Positions 8,945 through 57,904 of a DNA stretch of 64,000 nt are shown here, in pieces (positions within the stretch are counted from its first letter, which is position 1; each line of letters starts with the position of its first letter). The translations under genes and the position numbers were made by a program. The notes beneath the pieces are model-generated. The model made no database searches. It was not told the DNA's origin and was given only the letters and a program-made list of their open reading frames with translations. The DNA is from Methylotenera sp. L2L1 (GTDB taxonomy: Bacteria > Pseudomonadota > Gammaproteobacteria > Burkholderiales > Methylophilaceae): assembly GCF_000744605.1 (NCBI RefSeq), contig NZ_JQMG01000001.1, positions 806,001 through 870,000 of the forward strand, read 5' to 3'.

Positions 8945-8960
8945 TGGCACGGCACTTGCT
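8945..8960 (+). promoter_or_regulatory. Sigma-54 promoter for the porin-glnK-amtB unit
   Basis: TGGCACGGCACTTGCT matches the sigma-54 consensus TGGCAC-N5-TTGCW at every defined position, with GG at 8946-8947 and GC at 8958-8959 exactly 10 bases apart. Transcription would begin near 8971, leaving a leader of about 43 bases before the porin ATG. The genes downstream (PII protein and ammonium transporter) are classical NtrC/sigma-54 targets. No clear NtrC palindrome was recognised upstream. Confidence 0.85.
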
Positions 8961-46749: not shown

Positions 46750-46823
46750 TGGAGCGGGTGACGGGAATCGAACCCGCGTATCGAGCTTGGGAAGCTAGCG
46801 TTCTACCATTGAACTACACCCGC
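46750..46823 (-). tRNA. tRNA-Gly(CCC)
   Basis: A full cloverleaf is readable on the minus strand: acceptor GCGGGTG/CACCCGC, D stem GTTC/GAAC, anticodon stem CTAGC/GCTCG (one mismatch), loop TTCCCAA with anticodon CCC, T stem GCGGG/CCCGT and loop TTCGATT. The discriminator is T and the 3' CCA is encoded. It reads GGG glycine codons. Located directly upstream of thiD. Confidence 0.95.
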
Positions 46824-47225
46824 AGAAATAACTACTCAGGCATCATGCGAACAGCACTTAACCTGCTAGCGTATTTTACCACCAATCACGCAAGCACTAA
46901 ACCTAGCAAACGAGTAATCACACTTTAAGCATCCAAGTGTTTAGTTAAATTAAGTGTTTACTTAAAACTTAGGAAGGCTGGCACTCAATACAGTAGCATT
47001 GGCGATGCATACCTAATATTTTAATATTTCTATAGACAAACTATTGACTACAAAGCCTAATTTTATTGCATAATGCGATTTAACATTGTTATGCATGTGG
47101 TTTATTGGTGCGTCATAGATAAGTCATCATCAAGACCAGCATTTAATAAAGCGTAGGTGCTAGTTTAATGCATCGTTAAAATGCAATTCGCTTATTTACT
47201 TAGCAATAATTATTTTTGAAACAAC
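46824..47225. other. Intergenic region between tRNA-Gly and the amyloid cluster
   Basis: An AT-rich, 400-base stretch with no gene supported. An imperfect palindrome, TGCATAA (47067-47073) and TTATGCA (47089-47095), lies about 130-160 bases upstream of the sigma-54 promoter candidate at 47226, a normal distance for an enhancer-binding activator site. It is the only such candidate I see. Confidence 0.4.
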
Positions 47226-47240
47226 TGGCACAGAAGTAGC
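47226..47240 (+). promoter_or_regulatory. Candidate sigma-54 promoter of the FapF-like gene
   Basis: TGGCAC-AGAAG-TAGC has GG at 47227-47228 and GC at 47239-47240 with exactly 10 bases between. The -24 half is perfect; the -12 half is weaker (TAGCG against TTGCW). Start of transcription would be near 47252, leaving a leader of about 18 bases that still contains the CAGGAG ribosome site at 47257-47262. Confidence 0.6.
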
Positions 47241-47269
47241 GGTGATGATTTATTTTCAGGAGATTGATA

Positions 47270-48565
47270 ATGGACATGAGGGTATATAAATTAAGCGCTA
47301 TTACATTAGCAATAAGCGCATGCTTATCAACAAATGCATGGTCCGGTGAGGCCTCTGCTGGCACACAAGATGTAGAACAGCTACGCAAAGAACTAGGTGA
47401 ACTAAACAGCCGCTATGAAGCACAGAGCGCTGCGCTACAAGCTTTAGCACAAAGACTACAGCAGCTTGAAACCTCTGGGCAAGGGCAAGCTAGACCAATG
47501 CACGCTGTGAATAAAAAAATGGTCGTTGCTGATACGGATACTGCTCCTAGCGCAAGCGGTGAAAGAACGCCGGCATCAGAAGCCAATGAACCAGTCATCA
47601 AAGAAGCGCCAGCCTCTCGTAGTGCTGAAGCGGTTTATCGTGAACAAAATGCTTTATTCAATAAAACATTCACCTTAGAGGCTGGCGTTAGCTACAGCCA
47701 TACCGATCGCCGCCAACTGACACTAGAAGGCTTTTTGGCACTAGATGCTATTTTCCTTGGTAATATTAACCTTGACCGCATTCAATCAGACATTACCCAG
47801 TTTGACCTCACTGGTCGTTATGGAGTAACTGACCGCCTTCAATTTGACCTCAATTTACCTTTCCTCTACCGCGCCTCAACCTATGAGTCCGGCGGTGCGG
47901 CTGGCGGTAGCGCTTCAACACTAAGTGAGCGTGATATCAGCAATGCTGGCTTAGGTGATGTAAGTGCCGGTGCTTACTACCGCATCTTCCCCGAAACACC
48001 TACAACCCCTGACGTAGTGTGGAATGTGCGTGTAAAAGCACCTACGGGCAAAGATCCATATGGCATTAAACTTAGAACAGACCCAGGCAACTCTAACTTG
48101 GTTGTTCCCGACGACCTGCCTACAGGTAATGGCGTATGGACACTATCTTCTGGCTTAACTTTCGTTAAAACCATAGATCCAGCGATTCTATTTGCCAATG
48201 TTAGCTATGCGCACAACTTTACCCGAAAATTTGATGACATTAGCGGTCAGCCAAATGTAAGCACCTCTGGTGAAATTGATTTAGGTGATGCTTATCAATT
48301 AGGTGGCGGCTTGGCTTTTGCATTGAATGAACGCATGAGCATGAGCATGTCTTACGCACATCGCTTTACACAAAAATCTAGGATTAAAGCCGATGGGCAA
48401 AGCTGGGTAAGCGTTGTTGGTAGTGACTCAAGCGCTGGTTCACTTAATTTTGGTGTGACTTATGCCATGACAGACCATCTTTCAATGGTCGCCAACGTTG
48501 GTGTGGGGGTAACGCCTGACGCACCGGATGTAACCGTAGGCATGAAGTTCCCGTATAACTTCTAA
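47270..48565 (+). CDS. fapF: FapF-like coiled-coil/beta-barrel amyloid exporter
   Basis: From the ATG at 47270, which has CAGGAG 7 bases upstream, the protein has 431 residues. A signal peptide (about 1-25) is followed by a heptad coiled coil (about 30-65: VEQLRKELGELNSRYEAQSAALQ is the start of it), a Pro/Ala/Ser/Thr-rich linker to about 120, then a beta-barrel (FNKTFTLEAGVSYSHTDRRQ to the terminal KFPYNF). FapF of Pseudomonas has this same N-terminal trimeric coiled coil, plug linker and 12-stranded barrel that passes Fap amyloid subunits across the outer membrane. Symbol by architecture and by the C39/FapC-like neighbours; not verified by alignment. Confidence 0.72.
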   Translation: MDMRVYKLSAITLAISACLSTNAWSGEASAGTQDVEQLRKELGELNSRYEAQSAALQALAQRLQQLETSGQGQARPMHAVNKKMVVADTDTAPSASGERTPASEANEPVIKEAPASRSAEAVYREQNALFNKTFTLEAGVSYSHTDRRQLTLEGFLALDAIFLGNINLDRIQSDITQFDLTGRYGVTDRLQFDLNLPFLYRASTYESGGAAGGSASTLSERDISNAGLGDVSAGAYYRIFPETPTTPDVVWNVRVKAPTGKDPYGIKLRTDPGNSNLVVPDDLPTGNGVWTLSSGLTFVKTIDPAILFANVSYAHNFTRKFDDISGQPNVSTSGEIDLGDAYQLGGGLAFALNERMSMSMSYAHRFTQKSRIKADGQSWVSVVGSDSSAGSLNFGVTYAMTDHLSMVANVGVGVTPDAPDVTVGMKFPYNF

Positions 48566-48589
48566 ACTGACCACTTTGTAATACATCTC

Positions 48590-48625
48590 CTAGTAACTAC
48601 CGACTTTAGTGTCAGTGGTTACTAG
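48590..48625 (+). terminator. Hairpin after the FapF-like gene
   Basis: CTAGTAAC (48590-48597) pairs with GTTACTAG (48618-48625), with additional inner pairing. It lies 25 bases after the stop. No U-tract follows, so termination is only probable. Confidence 0.45.
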
Positions 48626-48850
48626 GTAACCTTCCCGCCAGTCAACACCAATCGCCACACGCTCACATTAATAGTGCTCAAAGTTAAACGCTTTACCCCA
48701 AACATACTAAGGTGTCGCCCTTAGTTTCAAACCCGTTGAATCAATATACGATGCAGATTCGTTGTAAAGCTTCACTTAAGGTGGCTTATACGCCTCACTA
48801 TCACCATTAACCATGCCTGATATTGGATAAACCGTGATGCCGCCTATAAG

Positions 48851-50236
48851 ATGCAAAACGGAAACCCAATCATGCATGAAATTGAATACCGTCATCTGCT
48901 TTACTTTAACACATCGTCTACACCCCCGATTTTGGTAGGTGAAATCAACGGTGCGGGCTGGCATGTAAAGCTGGCCGAAGATGTCCCTAGCGCCCAAAAC
49001 ATACTGTACAAATACACCCCACGGGTTGCTATCGCCCAATTTGACGATGCAAACGGGCGCCTGCCAGTACCTATTGAAAATTTTTTCAGAAACGTAGATC
49101 AAATAGAATGGGTTGCTTTAATCCCTAAAAAGGCGATTAACAATCACCACATCAAGCAAATTATTAGTGAATCTTTCTACGACTTTCATACGCTACCACC
49201 AGAAACAGAAAAACTACTCGCTACACTAGGACATGCTGAAGGCATGGCGCTCATGAAACGGGATAACCCTGCCGCACGGCAATTGCAATTAGAATTGCAG
49301 CCTAGTGAAGATGAAATGGTGGGTGCCAGCCCGCAGATGCTGGACTTATTTAAAAATATACGCAAGGTGGCCAGCGTAGACGCACCTGTGTTGATTACTG
49401 GCGAAAGCGGGACAGGCAAAGAGCTTGCAGCACTGGCGCTACACGAACGCTCAGCTCGACATCACAAGCCATTTGTTGCGGTCAATTGTGGCTCTCTACC
49501 CAGTGGGTTGATTCAGTCAGAGCTATTTGGCCACGAAAAGGGCGCATTTACTGGTGCTAGCCAGCGTAAAATTGGCCGCATTGAAGCCGCATCCGGTGGC
49601 ACCATTTTTCTGGATGAGATTGGTGATTTACCGCTGGAATTACAAGTGAATCTTTTGCGTTTTTTACAAGAAAAAACCATTGAACGCTTAGGCAGTACGG
49701 AGAAAATTCACGTTGATGTGCGTGTGCTTGCAGCGACACATATTGACCTAGAAGCTGCAGTAAAAGAGGGGCGGTTTCGAGAGGATTTATATTATCGACT
49801 GCATGTATTAAAAATTAAAACGCCTGCACTACGCGATAGAGAAGGTGATATTGAAGTGCTTGCTAAATACTTCTTTGATAAGTTTTTTAACGAAAAAAGA
49901 CGCAACGTCAAAGGGTTTTCACCATCGGCATTGCAGTTGATGAATCACTATGCTTGGCCTGGCAATGTACGAGAGCTTATCAGCAGAGTTAGGCGAGCCA
50001 TGGTGATGTGTGAAAGACGCCTTATCGCGCCAGAAGATTTAGATCTTGACCGCAGGAATGGTGAGCGCCACATAACAACACTTGAGTCTGCTAGAAATAC
50101 CGCTGAGATGGAGGCGATTCGCAATGCCTTGCATAAAAACAACAGCAATCTAACACTTGCATCACGTATGCTTGGGGTATCCCGTGCGACCTTATACCGA
50201 TTAATGGAAAAGTACGACTTAATGCCTAAATCCTGA
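48851..50236 (+). CDS. Sigma-54-dependent activator of the amyloid cluster
   Basis: A 461-residue enhancer-binding protein. The N-terminal ~140 residues resemble a degenerate receiver (VpsR/FleQ-like), with no clear phospho-acceptor Asp pattern. The AAA+ core has Walker A GESGTGKE (about 182), the sigma-54 contact loop GAFTGAS, Walker [11 protein letters not shown], and WPGNVREL. The C-terminal Fis-type helix-turn-helix is [19 protein letters not shown] (about 434). It sits between the exporter gene and the amyloid run, each of which has a GG-N10-GC promoter candidate, so it is likely their dedicated activator. An ATG 7 codons later is an alternative start. Confidence 0.9.
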
Positions 50237-50521
50237 AATATAATCATTCGTAATCATTTAATTTTCTATATCTAATTTCCCTGCTTTTAACTCACCCATA
50301 CTTGCTTAGGCACCTCCACCGTCAGCCCCAAACCGGCTTGTTACCTCTTTAAAACATCACTGTTGCAATTTTGATACACTTTTTAAAACTTAATTTATTC
50401 ATTAAATTCAATAAGATACAAAAATAACACCTAACATCTGTCACAAATTCAGTACATATATATCCTAGCAGCCAGTTCTTATTTTCCATAAATATACAAT
50501 AAAAACAACATCTTATATAGT
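50237..50521. other. Intergenic, AT-rich, upstream of the amyloid run
   Basis: No gene is supported between the activator stop and the sigma-54 promoter at 50522. This 285-base, strongly AT-rich stretch is where activator sites and an IHF site would be expected; I cannot pick out a clear palindrome. Confidence 0.35.
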
Positions 50522-50537
50522 TGGCATGCCGATTGCT
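50522..50537 (+). promoter_or_regulatory. Sigma-54 promoter of the amyloid gene run
   Basis: TGGCAT-GCCGA-TTGCT matches TGGCAC-N5-TTGCW except for the last base of the -24 box. GG (50523-50524) and GC (50535-50536) are exactly 10 bases apart. Transcription would start near 50548, about 50 bases before the first ATG at 50600, which has GAGGAGCAGG as its ribosome site. Confidence 0.8.
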
Positions 50538-50599
50538 ATACCTATCCCAACGATTCGATGCGCAATGTTATCGCATCGACAAGTTGAGGAGCAGGCAAT

Positions 50600-50968
50600 A
50601 TGTACTGGGTATCAAAGCTACTAAGCAAACATGAGAATCAACATCTAAATAGCGATCAGCATTTAGCTGACATCGTCGTTAGAGTACTCGTGATTGCGGT
50701 GTTTTGTAGCTCAAGTTTAGCATTTGCCGGCGCTACGGAGATTACCTCCGAACCCAATGAACTGAATTGGTTGGGTGATGATACCGTGACGATAGACGAT
50801 ACAGATTTATCATCGATTAACGGTAAAGGTGCGGAAGTCACTGCTTTAGACAGTGACTCAAAATTAGCGATTATTCTTTGGGATGAAGGTAGGCAGGGTA
50901 ACAAAGGCGGCACACATCATGAAATGAGTAGCCGCCCTGTGATTACGTTGACCGTCATTCAAAAATAA
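50600..50968 (+). CDS. Small exported protein, first gene of the amyloid run (FapA-like position)
   Basis: A 122-residue protein with a long N-region and a membrane/signal segment (IVVRVLVIAVFCSSSLAFAGA, about 25-45). The mature part is acidic and carries DDTDLSSINGKG (about 67-77), similar to the LSxxxG motif in other exported proteins of the cluster, and ends in PVITLTVIQK. The GAGGAG site gives a firm start. In Pseudomonas the first Fap gene (fapA) makes a small periplasmic protein that guides amyloid composition; the position agrees but I see no certain sequence identity. Confidence 0.65.
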   Translation: MYWVSKLLSKHENQHLNSDQHLADIVVRVLVIAVFCSSSLAFAGATEITSEPNELNWLGDDTVTIDDTDLSSINGKGAEVTALDSDSKLAIILWDEGRQGNKGGTHHEMSSRPVITLTVIQK

Positions 50969-50981
50969 AGGAATCCATATC

Positions 50982-51530
50982 ATGCACAACAAGCACTTAC
51001 AAATAGGACAGCAAGCAAGCACTGCTTCACTATTGTGTGAGTTTGTTATGTCAGGTCTTATTATTTTAGGTTCAACTGTGCCGACCACGACAGCATTGGC
51101 AGCAGACGGCATTGTCGTACTACAACGTGAAGTGTCAGTCCGCCCAGCCATCCGTGATGGTCAACCTGGGCGCGCAGTCACCGTTGACACTTCACCAGAT
51201 GACAAGATTAAAACGTCTGTGGGTCAAAGTATAGGGGTTAAGCCAATTGAGTTAGATGATGCTGAATTTTCCGCAATTTCTACTAACACCCCAGCATCAT
51301 TAAACGTTACCACTGACACAAACAAACTATCGGGGGCTGTGCTCAACAGCTATGGCCTAGGCAACAGCCATCCAGCACAATCAGCAACATCAACGCTATC
51401 AGGTACGATTGGCGGCGCAGTTGGTGGTGCGGTTGGCGGTTTGCCAAGTCAAATTAACGCTGGGCTTAATGGCACTAGTAATGCATTAAACGGCATGACT
51501 GGCGCCATTATGCGTAGTAGCGGCCAGTAA
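50982..51530 (+). CDS. Exported cluster protein of unknown function
   Basis: A 182-residue protein with a signal peptide ending at about residue 41 (STVPTTTALAA). The mature N-terminal half (VVLQREVSVRPAIRDGQPGRAVTVD) is beta-rich and includes ELDDAEFSAIS, a weak version of the shared D-x-x-[LF]-S motif. The C-terminal part is Gly/Ala/Asn-rich (GGAVGGAVGGLPSQINAGLNG) and lacks cysteine after the signal. It begins 14 bases after the previous stop. Probably secreted or periplasmic; no family recognised. Confidence 0.6.
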   Translation: MHNKHLQIGQQASTASLLCEFVMSGLIILGSTVPTTTALAADGIVVLQREVSVRPAIRDGQPGRAVTVDTSPDDKIKTSVGQSIGVKPIELDDAEFSAISTNTPASLNVTTDTNKLSGAVLNSYGLGNSHPAQSATSTLSGTIGGAVGGAVGGLPSQINAGLNGTSNALNGMTGAIMRSSGQ

Positions 51531-51553
51531 GAAAAGAGCATGAGGAAACCATC

Positions 51554-52180
51554 ATGAACTCACAAATCTTAGTCTCAGTATTATTAATCCCGCTATCTGT
51601 ACTGCATAGCCAGTTAGCAATTGCACAAGATAACTTGCCTGATATTCCTAGCTATATGACGCAAAGTGTTATTGATAGCAATGTATTAAGCCATGTGCGT
51701 GGTCGCTTTGCTGTCAACATGACAGCAGGGGACTCCAACACCCAAGCAAATGCCGCAGCCATCGCGCTTGGCACACAAAATGGCCCAGCGATTGGCATCG
51801 TGAATGGCATGCAGGCCATTGGTTCTCATCAAGCTAATTTACCAGACATCGCGATTGCCGCCATCGGCGGTCAAGCCTTTGCATATAGCTCAGGTTTGAT
51901 TTCGGTGAATCAATCAAGTGGTGTAGGTAACGCACAAGCGAATGGCGCAGCATTCGCAATGGGATTTGAGGAAGTGATAGCAGAAAGCGTGCTTTCTGCC
52001 GCGACTTCAAATGCAGTACCGATTGACGCAGGAAACAGCAAGCGTCACCAAGCAGTATCGATTGATGATACTGCGTTTCATGGTGCACACGGGCTAGTTC
52101 AGGTCAACCAATCGGCAGGGTCGGGCAATAGTACGGCCAATAACTTTGCGCTCCAAGTGCAATTGGGCGCAAAGCCGTAA
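51554..52180 (+). CDS. Fap-type repeat protein (minor amyloid-like subunit)
   Basis: A 208-residue exported protein with signal peptide (about 1-25). After the motif SNVLSHVRGRF (about 43-52) come three degenerate copies of the same repeat: FAVNMTAGDSNTQANAAA, ISVNQSSGVGNAQANGAA and VQVNQSAGSGNSTANN. These G-x-x-x-N-x-Q-A-N strings are the amyloid repeat of Fap subunits in short form. FapB, the nucleator, also has three repeats, so FapB-like is a fair description, but a FapE-like role is not excluded. Starts after GAGGAAACC ribosome site. Confidence 0.68.
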   Translation: MNSQILVSVLLIPLSVLHSQLAIAQDNLPDIPSYMTQSVIDSNVLSHVRGRFAVNMTAGDSNTQANAAAIALGTQNGPAIGIVNGMQAIGSHQANLPDIAIAAIGGQAFAYSSGLISVNQSSGVGNAQANGAAFAMGFEEVIAESVLSAATSNAVPIDAGNSKRHQAVSIDDTAFHGAHGLVQVNQSAGSGNSTANNFALQVQLGAKP

Positions 52181-52217
52181 TTTCAAGTTCTTTACCAACC
52201 GCAATTAGGAGAATAAC

Positions 52218-53417
52218 ATGAAATCGTCTTTTGAAAAAAAATCCATCGCGTTGGCAGTGGCCGCTTTGCTCACTTCGCCAGCAATATTTGCTAATGATAA
52301 CGATCGTGGTCGAGGCCATGAAGATGTCGAAATCAAAAAAGAAATTAGCTTGGAACAAGATGTAGAAATTGAAGGTACAGTCGATGTGAGCGGTAGTATT
52401 TATATTGACGCTAGTTCTGCAGCAATCGTTAATGACAAGCAAATTAACGGTGACAATGAAGTGACCAATAATGAATCCACCAACACTGCAACTGTAGACG
52501 GCAATGCACTTAATAGTGCCAGTGGTAACATTGGTATCAACGTTACCGCAGGTGATAACAACCAACAAGCTAACGCAGCCGCATTTTCTGCCGCTGATGC
52601 CAGCTTTGTGTTTGGTTCATCTGATGCCGAGGTCTTTGCAACGCAAGCTGTGGTTGGCAACAACGTCACTAACTTAGGCCAAACTAATGCAGCGGCACTT
52701 GGCGGTGACGCACTTGCTAATGCCAGCGGTAACATCGGTGTTAATATTTCTGCTGGTAACAATAATCAGCAAAAAAATGACCTTGCTGCATCTGTAGCTG
52801 TTGCTCGCATGGCCACTGCCACTGTTGAAGTAACTCAAATCAATGGTCATAACACAACCTCTAACGATCCTATCAGTAAAGAAGAAATACAGAATATTGC
52901 TGTCAACCTAGCCCTTAGCGCGACTGGCGGTTACTCTGGTTCTGGTAGTGGTACCTATTCTGGTAGCGCATCAGGCACCACAACTGGTACTTCCGATCAG
53001 ATTGGCAATGTCTACCCTGATATTTGGACAGGTAACACTCACCCTAATGGTAGCCAAACTGGTCACTTTGACCTAGATACAGCAACTCAAGGCGGTAGTG
53101 ACCTTAACGATGACGGCGGTGCGCTTGCATTTGGCAACAATGGCACATATTCAGGTACAGAGGGTGGCGGCCTAGGATTTTATGAATCTGGCACCCAGAC
53201 TTTATCTGGCAGTGTGACTGGTTATATTCCAGTGGTTGTAGCGACTAACCTAGCAACAACAAATACATCGACCCTAGGTGATAACGCACTGATGAACGCT
53301 TCTGGCAATATTGGCGTTAACATCGCATCAGGTACCAACAATCAGCAATATAACGGCCTAGCAATCTCTGCTACACAAGCTGGCGTTGGCGGCGGAAGTG
53401 GTGGTGGCGGTGAGTAA
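52218..53417 (+). CDS. fapC: FapC-like major functional-amyloid subunit
   Basis: A 399-residue exported protein with signal peptide (about 1-25). Three copies of ASGNIG[IV]N-x-x-[AS]G-x-NNQQ-x-N occur at about 101-120, 169-187 and 361-379. A 50-residue linker separates R1 and R2, and a 170-residue Gly/Ser/Thr-rich linker separates R2 and R3. This is the repeat and linker design of Pseudomonas FapC, where repeats form the fibril core and linker 2 is the variable part. It has no cysteine at all, whereas Pseudomonas FapB/FapC end with a CxxC motif. TTAGGAG precedes the ATG. The end is GGGSGGGGE. Confidence 0.78.
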   Translation: MKSSFEKKSIALAVAALLTSPAIFANDNDRGRGHEDVEIKKEISLEQDVEIEGTVDVSGSIYIDASSAAIVNDKQINGDNEVTNNESTNTATVDGNALNSASGNIGINVTAGDNNQQANAAAFSAADASFVFGSSDAEVFATQAVVGNNVTNLGQTNAAALGGDALANASGNIGVNISAGNNNQQKNDLAASVAVARMATATVEVTQINGHNTTSNDPISKEEIQNIAVNLALSATGGYSGSGSGTYSGSASGTTTGTSDQIGNVYPDIWTGNTHPNGSQTGHFDLDTATQGGSDLNDDGGALAFGNNGTYSGTEGGGLGFYESGTQTLSGSVTGYIPVVVATNLATTNTSTLGDNALMNASGNIGVNIASGTNNQQYNGLAISATQAGVGGGSGGGGE

Positions 53418-53473
53418 TGGTGCTTAGATAGCACAACTATCGTGCACTGACAGCCCAAAAGGCCGTCTCGCAG

Positions 53474-53501
53474 GTCCCCGCTAGCTTTTTCTAGTGGGGA
53501 C
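53474..53501 (+). terminator. Strong intercistronic hairpin between FapC-like and C39 peptidase genes
   Basis: GTCCCCGCTAG (53474-53484) pairs with CTAGTGGGGAC (53491-53501), 11 bp with one G-T pair and a CTTTTT loop. It lacks a 3' U-tract. Likely function is to block 3' decay or reduce read-through, so that the amyloid subunit is made in excess over the peptidase. Confidence 0.6.
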
Positions 53502-53553
53502 TTCGCTACTTCTTACCGCTCGCATCACGCTGTGTTACGAAAAGAGAATTGCG

Positions 53554-54306
53554 ATGTTACATACCCATCAATACACACTGACTCATAAATCAATACGTGT
53601 ACTCACGATGATTGTCGTCATGCATGTAAGTGTCACTATCTCGTCTGCATTGATGCACCCAGCCATGGCAACCGATATTAGATTCGGTGGCATAGTGCCG
53701 GGCATGGGGGTCATTCAAAAAGACATGCTGAGCATGCGGGAGTTAAAGTTTACAGATATGGTGCCACAACACACTGACTTTAGCTGTGGGGCTGCTGCAT
53801 TAGCGACTATTTTGAATTATGCATATAAGAAAAATTTAACTGAAGAAGATGTCATCGAAGGCTTATTAAAAGTGAGCGACCCTGAATTAGTGCGTCAAAA
53901 AGGGTTTTCTCTATTGGATATTAAAAACTACACGCAAAGCATTGGCTTCCGCGGACGTGGCTATAACGTCACCCCTGAGACCTTAGAAAAGGTCACGATT
54001 CCAACCATTGTTTTACTTAACTACAAAGGTTACAAACACTTTGTTGTACTAAAAAAATCTACTGCGGAAAGAGCTTATATCGCAGACCCTGCCTTAGGTA
54101 ACCGCATCATGAAAAGAAGTGAATTTGATGCCAACTGGAATGGCATTGTATTTGCTGTCATTGGACAAGACTTTGATCGTGAATCTATCTTACTCAAACC
54201 AAAAGAACAATTAACGGCTAGAACATTAACCGATTCATTTCACCCTTTAACCGACGCAGAACTGTTTGATTTTGGGTTTGTGCGTTCAGATATGCTAGGA
54301 CTATAA
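53554..54306 (+). CDS. fapD: C39 peptidase, FapD-like (no transporter domain)
   Basis: 250 residues from the ATG at 53554; an upstream in-frame start at 53494 would place translation inside the hairpin and has no ribosome site. A signal/anchor segment (SIRVLTMIVVMHVSVTISSA, about 12-31) leads to a papain-like C39 domain: catalytic Cys in QHTDFSCGAAALATIL (about 79), His in YKHFVVLKKS and Asp in YIADPALGN. Single-domain C39 peptidases of this kind are FapD in Fap systems, needed for amyloid export. It lacks the ABC transporter part of bacteriocin exporters. Expected in the periplasm. Confidence 0.8.
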   Translation: MLHTHQYTLTHKSIRVLTMIVVMHVSVTISSALMHPAMATDIRFGGIVPGMGVIQKDMLSMRELKFTDMVPQHTDFSCGAAALATILNYAYKKNLTEEDVIEGLLKVSDPELVRQKGFSLLDIKNYTQSIGFRGRGYNVTPETLEKVTIPTIVLLNYKGYKHFVVLKKSTAERAYIADPALGNRIMKRSEFDANWNGIVFAVIGQDFDRESILLKPKEQLTARTLTDSFHPLTDAELFDFGFVRSDMLGL

Positions 54307-54446
54307 AATTTAGTAAGTAGACACTAACGCAACAGAATTAATGAAGAAAGTAGTTCGTTCACATGCACTCAACAGCAATACATTTAGGTACAACATCAAG
54401 AGCAATTAGAAATAAATGTAGCTGAGGAGTTTAGGAGGTTTTAAAA

Positions 54447-55322
54447 ATGAACATCTCTACAATGAATTCGATTCAACACGCGCAATATTTACACCAATTG
54501 AATTTGAAAACGGCGCATCAATCTAGTGTGCTGGCAACTCCCTCTAAGAAAATTGCATTCATGTTAGCTAGCGTTATTGCTATTAGCCCTGTAACCAGTG
54601 CAGCCTTACCACCAGACATAGAAGTTTTTAATGGTATGCAAGAGGTTTCTGATAACGATCTGGGCCATATGCGCGGTAAGTTCGCAAGTAACAACCAAGT
54701 GCTATATTTTGGGGTGGAAATGATTAGCCAATGGGAAACCTCAACAGGCAATGTCATTACTGCTGGCGCTAACCTCAATATAGACTTTAGATCCAACACG
54801 CCATCTGTGCACTATGTACCAACTGTCAGTATCGAACAATCTCAAAACACTGTGACCGCTCAGCAATCGGATGGAAATAACAATGTCAGTGGCGGTGCAG
54901 GCTTAGCCAACATCAGCGGTGTTTCACAAACCATACAAGTCGCTGGCGCTTCTAACAGCATTCATAACGGCATCGACATGCAAGTGGAGCTAACATCGGC
55001 TAACCAAGGCGGCTCTATCGCCGATGCAGTAGGCAGTCAGGCTGGATTAGTATCAGCCACAGCCAGTGACGGAACTGTCGCCACGGTCACACTGTCAAAT
55101 AACAGTATTGGTGTTAATGTGATGGTGCCTGGACAAGGGCAGATACTACAAGAAATTAGGAATCAGGGCATGTTCCAAGCTGCACGGATTGGCGGGGATC
55201 TTAACCAAATTCATAACGCAATTACCATGCATATTGGTTTAAATGCAGCAACAGGCAACGGTAGCACCAGTGCTTTTGCAGCAATACAAAGTTTGAAGAG
55301 TCTGCCTCAACATAGCTTTTAG
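54447..55322 (+). CDS. FapE-like exported repeat protein
   Basis: A 291-residue protein with an extended N-terminus and signal peptide (cleavage near residue 53, TSAALPPD). It carries SDNDLGHMRGKFAS (about 68-81), the shared motif in clearest form, followed by Asn/Gln/Ser-rich beta repeats (NTVTAQQSDGNNNVSGGAG; QVAGASNSIHNGIDMQV; RIGGDLNQIHNAITMHIGL). The AGGAGG site at 54433-54438 is ideal. The distance of 140 bases from the peptidase gene would allow a separate promoter, but no GG-N10-GC site was seen. The position after C39 peptidase matches fapE. Confidence 0.62.
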   Translation: MNISTMNSIQHAQYLHQLNLKTAHQSSVLATPSKKIAFMLASVIAISPVTSAALPPDIEVFNGMQEVSDNDLGHMRGKFASNNQVLYFGVEMISQWETSTGNVITAGANLNIDFRSNTPSVHYVPTVSIEQSQNTVTAQQSDGNNNVSGGAGLANISGVSQTIQVAGASNSIHNGIDMQVELTSANQGGSIADAVGSQAGLVSATASDGTVATVTLSNNSIGVNVMVPGQGQILQEIRNQGMFQAARIGGDLNQIHNAITMHIGLNAATGNGSTSAFAAIQSLKSLPQHSF

Positions 55323-55567: not shown

Positions 55568-57904
55568 TCAAAACTCCAATGGATTCACGTCCACTGCCCA
55601 TCTCACCTTAGCCGCTATCGGTTCAGACCTTAATTGATGCACCAATTGTGTCAACAGCTTTTGCAATGCTGGCCGTTGGGTTGAGTGCATTAAAATATAA
55701 GCACGCTCCATCCCTTTTAAGCGCTCCATCTGCGGCCTCACTGGGTCATAAGTCATGACATGCTGACCAAGCTGGCGCGCCTGCTCAAACGCAAACTGTA
55801 GAAATTTCTGTACCAACGCAAAATCATGCGCTTCCGCACGCAACAATGCAGTGAAGACATAAGGTGGGAACTGCACCTGTGCACGCTCCTGCAGCAAATC
55901 ATTGGCATAGCTTGCGTAATCTTGCGTACGCAATGCATTGAACAAGGCATGATCTGGAAATGCCGTCTGAATAATTACTTGCCCCGCTTTATCAGCTCTA
56001 CCCGCACGCCCAGCAACCTGCATCAGCTGTGCAAACAAGCGCTCGCTCGCCCTAAAGTCAGGGCTATGCAGGGCGCTATCAGTATCAATCACGCCCACTA
56101 ACGTTAAGTTAGGAAAGTCATGTCCTTTAGCCAGCATCTGCGTGCCCACTAAAATATCTATTTCCTGATTATGTACACGATCTAGAATTTCAACCAAAGC
56201 ATGCTTGCGGCTAATGCTGTCACGATCCACCCTTGCGATACGCGCTGCTGGGAGCAGGGTAGCTAAGGTCTGCTCCAGGCGCTGCGTACCATGACCGGTC
56301 GGGTGTAAATCCGCATCGCCACAACTTGGACATTGATTCGGAATACGCTGCTCATGCCCACAGTGATGGCAGCGCAATTTTCTTTGCCCTAAGTGCACCA
56401 CCAAGCGGCTACTACAGCGCGTGCAAGGCGCAATCCAGTGGCAAGCGGAACACAATAGGACCGGCGAATACCCGCGGCGATTGATAAATAATAGCGACTG
56501 CTCTTTACGCTCCAACCGTAAACGCAACGCTGAAACAAGCTGTGGTGTTAATCCATACTGTAAATTGACCTTAGTGGTATCAATACAATCAATCTTAGGC
56601 AGCCGTGCGGCCGTCACCGCGCGCTGTTTTAATGTGAGCAAGCCATATTTATTAGGCTGACTATTGCTAGGTGCTGCGTTTAAAGCCTGCGCATGACTGC
56701 CCATTGCGTTGTACCAGCTTTCTAACGCAGGGGTTGCAGACCCCATCACCACAGGAATATTGAGCCGTTTTGCACGCACCAAAGCAACGTCGCGCGCATG
56801 GTAACGCATGCTATCTTGCTGCTTATAGGAGCTATCATGCTCTTCATCAATAATTATCAGCTTTAAATTAGGCATAGGCGTAAAAATTGAAAGCCGCGTC
56901 CCAATAATAATCTGTGCTGCTCCCGCCTGTGCAAGCTGCCAGTTATGTAAGCGCTCACTCTCACTCAGGCTGCTATGTAAACTCACTAAACTATATTGAG
57001 GCAATCGCGCTCTAAACCTTGCCTCTAGCTGGGGGGTCAGGTTAATTTCGGGCACTAGTACCAGTATCTGAGCACTGATTTGTTCAGGCTTTGTTGCAGC
57101 CGAGTCACCCGTATTATTTTTTGCTTCTGGGTTATCTTGTACTTCTTGTTTATCTTGCGATGCTTGCAATATATGTTGCATCAAGCGGATATAAACTTCG
57201 GTTTTTCCACTTCCGGTGATGCCATGCAATAACCACGCTCTAAACGCCTTAATGTCTTGCGTGATACTTGCCACGGCCTGCGCTTGCTCATCATTCAGCG
57301 CAGGTTGCGGTGTTTCTAATATGGCAGGCACACGCTTGACCGCCAACACTTGCTCGCTTGACGCATAGCCCAAAGCCACTAGTTCTTTTGCCGCCTTACG
57401 CGCACTACCTGACAGCGCATCAAGCTCTGCTTCAGTTTGAGCGTTATCTGCCTGCAATGCTGTCAATACTTGGCGCAACACACGCTGCCTTTTGGGCATA
57501 GCCTCAAGGTCAACCTGCCGGCCTAAATCAGTGATTTGATATAAATATTGTTTACGCGAAACCGCTGGTGCCACTTGGCGCAAACGTGCAGGTAAAGCTG
57601 CTAACAACGCCTGGCCAAACGGATAGTGATAATAATCCGCGCTAAACTTAATCAAACTTAACACTTCAGCATCAAGCGGCGCTTCTTCAACAAACGCCTG
57701 CGTAATTGGCTTAAGTTTCTCTATGGCAAACTCACTGCTATCAGTGTGGTCTATCACAATGCCAATTTGATTACGGCGCCCAAACGGTACCAGTACGCGC
57801 TGGCCAATCTCTACGTGTTGATCCGCACTTAAATAATCAAATAAGCGTGCGAGCGGTACATCAAGTGCAATTTTTAAGATGGGTTTAGACAATGGCAGTA
57901 ACAA
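55568..57904 (-). CDS. priA: Primosomal protein N' (replication restart helicase)
   Basis: A 778-residue helicase that restarts stalled forks. The N-terminal DNA-binding domain (ILKIALDVPLARLFDYL), Walker A HGITGSGKTEVY (about 227), DEEH box IIDEEHDSSYKQ, two zinc sites (CSACHWIAPCTRCSS and CHHCGHEQRIPNQCPSCG), motif V TQMLAKGHDFPNLTLVGV and motif VI QVAGRAGRADKAG are intact. A region near 263-280 is a low-complexity insert (NPEAKNNTGDSAATK) not usual for the family. Encoded alone on the minus strand. Confidence 0.96.
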   Translation of the reverse strand: MLLPLSKPILKIALDVPLARLFDYLSADQHVEIGQRVLVPFGRRNQIGIVIDHTDSSEFAIEKLKPITQAFVEEAPLDAEVLSLIKFSADYYHYPFGQALLAALPARLRQVAPAVSRKQYLYQITDLGRQVDLEAMPKRQRVLRQVLTALQADNAQTEAELDALSGSARKAAKELVALGYASSEQVLAVKRVPAILETPQPALNDEQAQAVASITQDIKAFRAWLLHGITGSGKTEVYIRLMQHILQASQDKQEVQDNPEAKNNTGDSAATKPEQISAQILVLVPEINLTPQLEARFRARLPQYSLVSLHSSLSESERLHNWQLAQAGAAQIIIGTRLSIFTPMPNLKLIIIDEEHDSSYKQQDSMRYHARDVALVRAKRLNIPVVMGSATPALESWYNAMGSHAQALNAAPSNSQPNKYGLLTLKQRAVTAARLPKIDCIDTTKVNLQYGLTPQLVSALRLRLERKEQSLLFINRRGYSPVLLCSACHWIAPCTRCSSRLVVHLGQRKLRCHHCGHEQRIPNQCPSCGDADLHPTGHGTQRLEQTLATLLPAARIARVDRDSISRKHALVEILDRVHNQEIDILVGTQMLAKGHDFPNLTLVGVIDTDSALHSPDFRASERLFAQLMQVAGRAGRADKAGQVIIQTAFPDHALFNALRTQDYASYANDLLQERAQVQFPPYVFTALLRAEAHDFALVQKFLQFAFEQARQLGQHVMTYDPVRPQMERLKGMERAYILMHSTQRPALQKLLTQLVHQLRSEPIAAKVRWAVDVNPLEF

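Follow-up and report, generated by a model that had tools for sequence, protein, structure and literature searches.

The closest described relatives of the locus studied here are the fap functional-amyloid clusters of Pseudomonas. About 95% of fap clusters are reported to be canonical or short only of fapA (PMC12822426), and separation of fapF from the other genes is a known variation, found in 4 of 16 genera (PMC3792158). In Pseudomonas, the Cys of FapD is needed for secretion, and FapE alone was N-terminally processed, with FapB and FapC intact; by mass spectrometry, Rouse and colleagues detected peptides throughout FapA to FapD, found FapE without its first ~70 residues, and called the target of FapD unclear (PMC5557850). 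A review of December 2025 presents FapD as merely thought to process FapE and FapF (PMC12822426). Known leaders cut by C39 peptidases have Leu at -12, Glu at -8, Leu at -7 and a hydrophobic residue at -4, followed by GG, GA or GS (PMC6363468). As to regulation, brfA of P. fluorescens PF07, a reverse gene adjoining fapF, is required for fap expression; the RpoN -24/-12 promoter of the fapA-E operon was mapped by 5' rapid amplification of cDNA ends, and fapF was not co-induced (PMC9207406). BrfA is stated to be a sensor of cyclic di-GMP (c-di-GMP) (PMC13101488). Here we analyse a fap cluster with an embedded sigma-54 activator gene in a 64,000-nucleotide stretch of the genome of Methylotenera sp. 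L2L1 (hereafter the window; locus positions count from its start).

The cluster is complete for Fap; it is an order variant with one extra component, a small exported protein that we name FapX. With a probability of about 0.8, we regard it as a complete Fap biogenesis system under BrfA-type control, in which FapD processes its substrates at a leader.

A complete fap cluster with fapF in front

Searches with NCBIfam profiles found all six Fap families among a run of eight plus-strand open reading frames (ORFs) from 47264 to 55322, in the order FapF, sigma-54 activator, FapX, FapA, FapB, FapC, FapD and FapE. Only FapC scored above its curated cut-off (Table 1). The matches below cut-off still had E values of 1.1e-8 or better (FapA, 1.1e-8; FapB, 9e-25; FapE, 1.6e-34), with the genes in the expected order, and iterative profiles agreed. 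The FapF profile score was under its cut-off of 700 bits not just here but in every one of the 399 genomes searched from the order of the window, which, like that of the sister loci described below, we take to be Burkholderiales in GTDB. By sequence, FapF matched both the solved FapF barrel and the solved coiled coil (PDB 6fue, 6e-4). The FapC repeats start at residues 97, 165 and 357; those of FapB, of the form GxxxVN..(A/S)G..N, are at residues 50, 114 and 180. The C39 catalytic set Gln-Cys-His-Asp was invariant across 42 aligned proteins, a chosen subset of 30 FapD and 12 FapD-like sister-locus proteins, and the FapD profile matched the double-glycine protease LahT150 (PDB 6mpz) at 2e-14. 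A single fapABCDEF operon, which is usual for Fap and does not define it, was not found, as fapF stands first and apart. On these matches, the cluster is almost certainly a Fap functional-amyloid system, and it would be expected to form fibres resistant to sodium dodecyl sulfate and to play a role in biofilms in this bacterium.

A preliminary description of this DNA had proposed a Fap-type cluster of eight consecutive plus-strand genes, with the exporter first and a sigma-54 activator embedded in it. All of this was borne out, and the order is common to other Methylotenera. The coiled-coil/beta-barrel exporter, the three-repeat FapC-like subunit, the C39 FapD-like peptidase and the exported FapE-like protein named there were each recovered by the searches above, and the activator by its domains (see below). 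Two other entries needed refinement: both small exported proteins exist, one being FapA by profile and the other FapX, and the short protein with three repeats, which were indeed seen, is FapB.

FapF relatives (E up to 1e-10) occurred in 6 of 150 Methylophilaceae genomes; the distribution of the cluster is therefore patchy. At this locus the window is nearest to Methylotenera mobilis 13 and M. oryzisoli, whose FapF proteins are 95% and 92% identical to its own. Gene order was compared across 100 loci, made up of the window, 80 loci of named genomes and 19 further regions; three are duplicates (L134-L136, of L039, L038 and L041), which were left out of the motif, promoter and palindrome counts, and L120 had no match at all. 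In 56 loci, fapABCDEF was followed by an activator gene on the opposite strand, starting 24-166 base pairs (bp) beyond fapF in the 7 of them whose coordinates were inspected, and in 18 loci no activator was detected beside fapABCDEF. With R for the activator and X for fapX, the order is F-R-X-A-B-C-D-E in the window and its close relatives, R-X-A-B-C-D-E-F in Methylophaga and R-X-B-C-D-E-F in a beta lineage (family f9); in the f27 betas, F-R is convergent with A-E. The gammaproteobacterium G619 has a tandem copy, R-X-B-C-D-E-X-A-B-C-D-E-F (L199:2736-14439), in which each of the two fapX genes has a -24/-12-like site. One contig of Pseudomonas frederiksbergensis 36C6 bears two separate fap clusters (L089, L091). 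In the relative G102 (L161:2290-9082), genes that by eye are CheB/CheR-like, PAS-LuxR-like and PAS-GGDEF lie between fapF and the activator.

The activator and its candidate sites

According to Pfam, the activator has every domain looked for in a BrfA-type protein: a VpsR N-terminal domain, an AAA+ domain with GAFTGA and a Fis helix-turn-helix. Six further activators were scanned. All four that belonged to fap or sister loci, one each from Pseudomonas, Methylophaga and an f27 beta and one from a sister locus, had the VpsR domain; both other Methylophilaceae activators had Response_reg in its place. In a tree of 54 activators, one branch (SH-like approximate likelihood ratio test 99) split 38 proteins of fap and sister loci from 16 others. 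Of the 150 Methylophilaceae genomes, 7 had homologues above 500 bits: G149 and each of the 6 that have FapF; the next best score was 320 bits. In G149 the activator is split and fapX is present as a weak remnant (L163:3498-5710); the 12 kilobases (kb) read contained no further fap genes, and an ORF of 1923 residues with haem-peroxidase, RTX and cadherin domains follows the remnant. This region looks like a decayed fap locus. The genome carrying the window, 2.64 Mb in a single contig, has one rpoN and 38 GGDEF matches. The activator belongs to a known kind, a fap-dedicated sigma-54 activator having already been described as BrfA.

In a search running from 400 bp ahead of the first gene (fapX, fapA or fapB) to 60 bp into it, we took the best GG-N10-GC that agreed with the consensus at 9 or more of 12 positions. 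Such a -24/-12 site was found in 81 of 91 loci; it appeared in 6.8% of mononucleotide shuffles and, on the reverse strand, in 17 of 91 loci. The loose -24/-12 pattern alone was not enriched in the window (62 matches, shuffle mean 58.8). Among five Methylotenera, TGGCA and TTGCTA were invariant inside a spacer of 47% mean identity; in G619, the same 17 promoter bases precede one fapX gene and a close variant of them precedes the other. The preliminary description had placed sigma-54 promoters both here and before fapF. The site upstream of fapX proved strongly conserved; the one at 47226 was dropped, being absent from M. mobilis 13 (L038) and weak in M. oryzisoli (L039).

A palindrome, TGTNNCA-N4-TGANACA, was invariant in the alignment of the same five Methylotenera. 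The pattern was loosened after two Methylophaga spacers had been viewed and then counted over the 350 bp upstream, as TGT-N12-ACA with 5 or more of 7 arm pairs; Pseudomonas loci had no part in its discovery. Of 91 fap operons, 65 had it upstream; among mononucleotide shuffles the rate was 1.6%. Candidate promoters and palindromes like these are found ahead of fap operons in both Beta- and Gammaproteobacteria. Genome-wide there were two perfect matches, that of the fap locus and one at 312036. A wider palindrome regulon was rejected: no -24/-12 site of 9/12 or better lay within the 3 kb surrounding 312036, and matches with at most one mismatch numbered 20 and 23, against 21 and 17 for the reversed control. 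Taken with the domains, these sites make BrfA-type control of the cluster very likely.

FapX, an extra component

FapX (122 residues) matched nothing in Pfam or NCBIfam at E values up to 1. In 12 aligned FapX proteins, D67, L70, G75, G77 and the tetrad LWDE (93-96) were invariant, besides the start Met and one Ala, giving the signature DxxLxxxxGxG...LWDE. A search with this alignment matched 5 of 399 genomes of the order, four in fap loci and one (G312) in a cytochrome-like ORF, judged by eye to be a chance hit and dropped, and 3 of 398 genomes of the phylum, all in fap loci. FapX is rare and, in the sampled genomes, was found only with fap, the G149 remnant being the exception. The idea that it is a lone Methylotenera orphan was given up, as it is present in fap clusters of five lineages. 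FapX looks like a new conserved component of Fap, seemingly unreported in the open-access literature searched. Any specific role for it, such as a processed minor fibre component or an export trigger, is possible but doubtful. In Methylotenera, both FapX (50600-50700) and FapE (54447-54560) have a long stretch, about 25-35 residues by eye, before the core of the signal peptide, and these stretches are conserved among close relatives.

A C39-type leader motif in FapE, FapX and FapB

FapE, FapX and the FapB of the window have a common leader, with a hydrophobic residue at -12, usually an acidic one at -8, Leu at -7, a hydrophobic residue at -4, Gly at -2 and Arg or Lys at -1. The invariant residues of FapX outside LWDE lie within it. 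A strict pattern following the published rule (PMC6363468), [LIVM]...[DE][LIVMF]..[LIVM].[GS], was searched in the first 130 residues, one protein per locus. It was found in 79/90 FapE, 65/88 FapA, 5/10 FapX and 3/90 FapB proteins. Elsewhere it was rare: 0/88 FapC, 2/91 FapD, 1/96 FapF, 1.5% of 2909 other ORFs and 1-5% of shuffles. A looser pattern matched 89 of 90 FapE proteins, always as RG[RK] followed by Tyr or Phe; the 90th (L132) reads TGK. The window FapX reads NGK at the predicted cleavage position. A matrix built from 12 representative FapE leaders, with its threshold at the 99% shuffle level, detected 7 of 10 FapX and 6 of 90 FapB proteins. In FapB, the leader stood directly before repeat 1 in all 13 fapX-positive and none of 82 fapX-negative proteins, related sequences counted with a pattern fixed after they had been viewed, so that a P value carries little weight. 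In Pseudomonas, where FapB and FapC are intact and FapE is processed, the processing agrees with the distribution of the motif. Where methylotroph FapB has the leader, Pseudomonas FapB has a stretch like I-D-x-S-G-M-Q-Y-x-G-N, which may be an eroded leader.

Sister loci with a FapF-like barrel and a C39 peptidase

Of 30 lower-scoring FapF matches (121 to 172 bits), 19 were examined, all in the same order as the window. These sister loci (L133, L165-L182) combine a FapF-like barrel, a FapD-like C39 peptidase and small exported proteins with RGG leaders; several have an N/S/T-rich exported protein. The C39 gene was found in 18 of the 19 and an activator of the same type in 12, and there was no match to FapA, FapB, FapC, FapE or FapX at the thresholds used. 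Leaders were counted as [LM]..xRG[GRKA] in the first 130 residues of ORFs of 80-350 residues, at most 1 kb away on the same strand, leaving out L168 (no C39 gene found, contig edge). At least one near ORF had the leader at 17 of 18 loci, mostly as RGG, L176 having none; two or more such ORFs, some in overlapping frames, were present at 11. Overall, 29 of 74 near ORFs had it, compared with 13 of 420 distant ORFs. With the FapE matrix (score at least 9), a near ORF was detected in 12 of 18 loci, against 2 of 420 distant ORFs. NCBIfam profiles were run on nine proteins of two sister loci; the C39 protein and the barrel were nearest to FapD/FilB and FapF/FilC, and the small proteins matched no named family. 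The sister loci are possibly another fibre system. The RG[RK] of Fap stands where they mostly read RGG, and this is the best evidence for a FapD site.

From this evidence, the leader is probably the recognition and cleavage site of FapD. It works like a C39 leader without being a canonical member of that class, and it looks new, FapE, FapX and FapB leaders being seemingly unreported in the open-access literature searched. Residues T94, A100, A221 and G224 (in the 270-residue reading of FapD), which differ between FapD and the sister C39 proteins, were considered as a pocket for the Arg or Lys; the differences were suggestive only, and the proposal was set aside.

Weighing of alternative explanations

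A number of observations speak against parts of this account. Most of the loci compared are from Pseudomonas, so the counts are not independent. The activator tree was a quick one with long branches flagged, took in no VpsR or BerB, and placed the Methylotenera activators not as the direct sister of the Pseudomonas branch but within the same large group (99). Methylophaga has the palindrome and no clear -24/-12 site. The idea that the sister loci share the palindrome was dropped, as most of the 19 lack it; there are two copies at L171, and at L176 and L181 a variant palindrome stands at a distance of 119-203 bp from a -24/-12 site. As for the leader, the strict pattern missed half of the FapX and nearly all FapB proteins, and in the window it fits FapE and FapX at -12, -8, -7 and -4 and fails for FapB at -8 (Val). 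The canonical Gly followed by Gly, Ala or Ser at -2/-1 is not what FapE leaders show, with Arg or Lys at -1. The FapE-trained matrix detected only 1 of 88 FapA proteins, and one FapC of 88 also passed. The looser FapE pattern, the FapB-leader pattern and the sister RG[GRKA] pattern were all written after the sequences had been viewed. Lastly, the canonical-looking motif in 65 of 88 FapA proteins stands against peptides reported throughout FapA, and the reported loss of FapE up to residue ~70 extends beyond the predicted Pseudomonas site at ~35-45 (PMC5557850). Trypsin data presumably cannot settle the FapD site, as cleavage behind Arg or Lys would be taken for the work of trypsin.

An export system of the Fil type, or another FapF/C39 system, could be mistaken for Fap, since the FilB and FilC profiles also match here (117 and 77 bits) and sister systems exist within the same order. 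The Fap profiles are far stronger (278 and 502 bits), FapC is above its cut-off and the cluster also has FapA, FapB and FapE, so this identity was dropped as scarcely credible. Activator genes are also common, a first look at the window genome having given 10 candidates, and this one might govern other genes and sit in the cluster by chance. Its co-occurrence with FapF, its adjacency in several lineages, the conserved promoter and palindrome, and the brfA genetics of P. fluorescens (PMC9207406) make such a coincidence very improbable.

The leader leaves more room for other readings. It may be bound by FapD or FapF as a docking site and not cut, the cut falling elsewhere, for example at a GG or GA further along FapE or in the FapF linker. 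Certain C39-like domains do bind without cutting, and the motif occurs in FapA, reported unprocessed in Pseudomonas, at 65 of 88 loci; the authors who found FapE missing to about residue 70 proposed FapE GG/GA or FapF sites (PMC5557850), and an earlier review points to the FapF double glycine (PMC5135000). We consider docking without cleavage unlikely: at 17 of 18 sister loci the C39 gene has beside it an RG[GRKA] leader, mostly a true RGG, C39 enzymes cut at that position, and all 89 matched FapE leaders contain RG, in keeping with a scissile region. A structural element of the mature proteins unrelated to FapD, such as a turn before the fibre core, would account for the conservation of the FapE motif together with the residues that follow, RG[RK][YF], and for the FapB motif abutting repeat 1. 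It would not account for spacing and residue types that obey the C39 leader rule (PMC6363468), nor for the motif in the otherwise unrelated FapE, FapX and FapB and beside the C39 genes of sister loci; we find it distinctly improbable. Cleavage by FapD at the leader remains the reading that we prefer.

Other features of the locus

The cluster is flanked before fapF by a tRNA-Gly gene (46750-46823, minus), itself preceded by a thiD-like kinase gene, and beyond fapE by priA (55568-57904, minus). A sigma-70-type scan of the window gave 16 sites, fewer than in shuffles (19.4). The sigma-70-like boxes at 47044 are a weak candidate for the fapF promoter, with a long spacer and conservation in close species. 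The sole mismatch-free match to the sigma-54 pattern in the window is TGGCACGGCACTTGCT at 8945-8960 (plus strand).

Table 1. Features of the fap locus, by position in the window
Feature	Position	Strand	Evidence and remarks
sigma-70-like promoter candidate for fapF (TTGACT, 19-base spacer, CATAAT)	47044..47074	+	M. mobilis 13 and M. oryzisoli have both boxes ahead of fapF too
sigma-54-like site before fapF, from the preliminary description, unsupported	47226..47241	+	2 consensus mismatches
fapF, outer-membrane exporter with N-terminal coiled coil	47264..48565	+	NF058560 502 bits (cut-off 700), PDB 5o65 5e-107; alternative start ATG 47270
BrfA-type sigma-54 activator	48851..50236	+	VpsR N-domain PF20161, AAA+ PF00158, Fis helix-turn-helix PF02954; GAFTGA at residue 231
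candidate activator (enhancer) palindrome TGTTGCAATTTTGATACA	50361..50378	+	starts 160 bp upstream of the sigma-54 promoter; sole perfect match in window
sigma-54 -24/-12 promoter (predicted) TTGGCATGCCGATTGCT	50521..50537	+	11/12 consensus positions; ends 63 bp before fapX ATG
fapX (name coined in this analysis), 122-residue exported protein with C39-type leader and LWDE	50600..50968	+	conserved in fap clusters
leader motif in FapX IDDTDLSSINGK, then G	50792..50827	+	motif search
fapA	50982..51530	+	NF058617 35.6 bits (cut-off 110) and position
degenerate leader-like stretch in FapA LDDAEFSAISTN	51252..51287	+	motif search
fapB, minor subunit, three repeats	51554..52180	+	NF058557 87.4 bits (cut-off 190)
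leader motif in FapB IDSNVLSHVRGR, then F, directly before repeat 1	51671..51706	+	motif search; -8 not acidic
fapC, main amyloid subunit, three repeats	52218..53417	+	NF058558 211.6 bits (cut-off 195)
fapD, periplasmic C39 peptidase	53554..54306	+	NF058616 278 bits (cut-off 330); ATG start favoured over GTG 53494
fapE	54447..55322	+	NF058559 119 bits (cut-off 250)
leader motif in FapE VSDNDLGHMRGK, then F	54645..54680	+	motif search

Proposed mechanism

At high c-di-GMP, the VpsR-domain activator would become active, bind the palindrome at 50361 and open the sigma-54 promoter at 50521, giving a fapX-A-B-C-D-E transcript; fapF would be transcribed from its own promoter. Sec would take the products through the inner membrane. 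FapD, in the periplasm, would dock on the C39-type leader helix of FapE, FapX and FapB and cut after RG[RK], or NGK in the window FapX. The cut in FapB would free the first amyloid repeat as a new N terminus. FapF would then export the subunits, with FapC polymerising on FapB.

In a broader reading, which we favour only slightly, Fap and the sister FapF/C39 systems would form one two-step secretion class, in which Sec substrates carry a second, periplasmic C39-type leader removed by a free FapD-like peptidase. Fap would have changed the cleavage residues from GG to RG[RK], FapX would be a dedicated co-substrate accompanying processed FapB, and the site would be hidden from trypsin-based proteomics.

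Comparison with known systems

The locus resembles the fapABCDEF operon of Pseudomonas (PMC5557850, PMC3792158) in its six Fap proteins, with three-repeat FapB and FapC, a C39 FapD and a FapF barrel. It differs in having fapF first and separate, in the additional fapX, and in a FapB bearing a leader that none of the examined Pseudomonas FapB proteins has. As with BrfA of PF07 (PMC9207406, PMC13101488), an activator gene lies beside fap and a -24/-12 promoter is predicted before the fapA operon, and the activator at the brfA position of a P. fluorescens genome has a VpsR domain, as that of the window does. The window gene shares its strand with fapF and fapX, between which it lies, whereas the PF07 gene is convergent downstream of fapF, and c-di-GMP binding by the window activator is suggested by likeness. 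The leaders follow the -12, -8, -7, -4 and Gly-2 pattern of the double-glycine leaders cut by C39 peptidases such as LahT150 and ComA (PMC6363468), and the catalytic residues are conserved in FapD. In contrast to the Gly, Ala or Ser at -1 of known C39 sites, Fap has Arg or Lys, and FapD, free in the periplasm, would act after Sec export. The putative pilus system Fil (NCBIfam FilB, FilC) and the sister loci likewise pair a FapF-like barrel with a FapD-like C39 peptidase, but their other exported proteins differ from those of Fap, and their leaders are mostly true RGG.

What makes the locus of interest is the leader motif, together with the sister systems and the DNA signature; the activator itself is of a known kind. 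The comparison yields an exact predicted cleavage site for FapD and points to a new Fap component. It also suggests that control of fap by sigma-54, and probably by c-di-GMP, extends beyond Pseudomonas, with a recognisable DNA signature by which it can be found.

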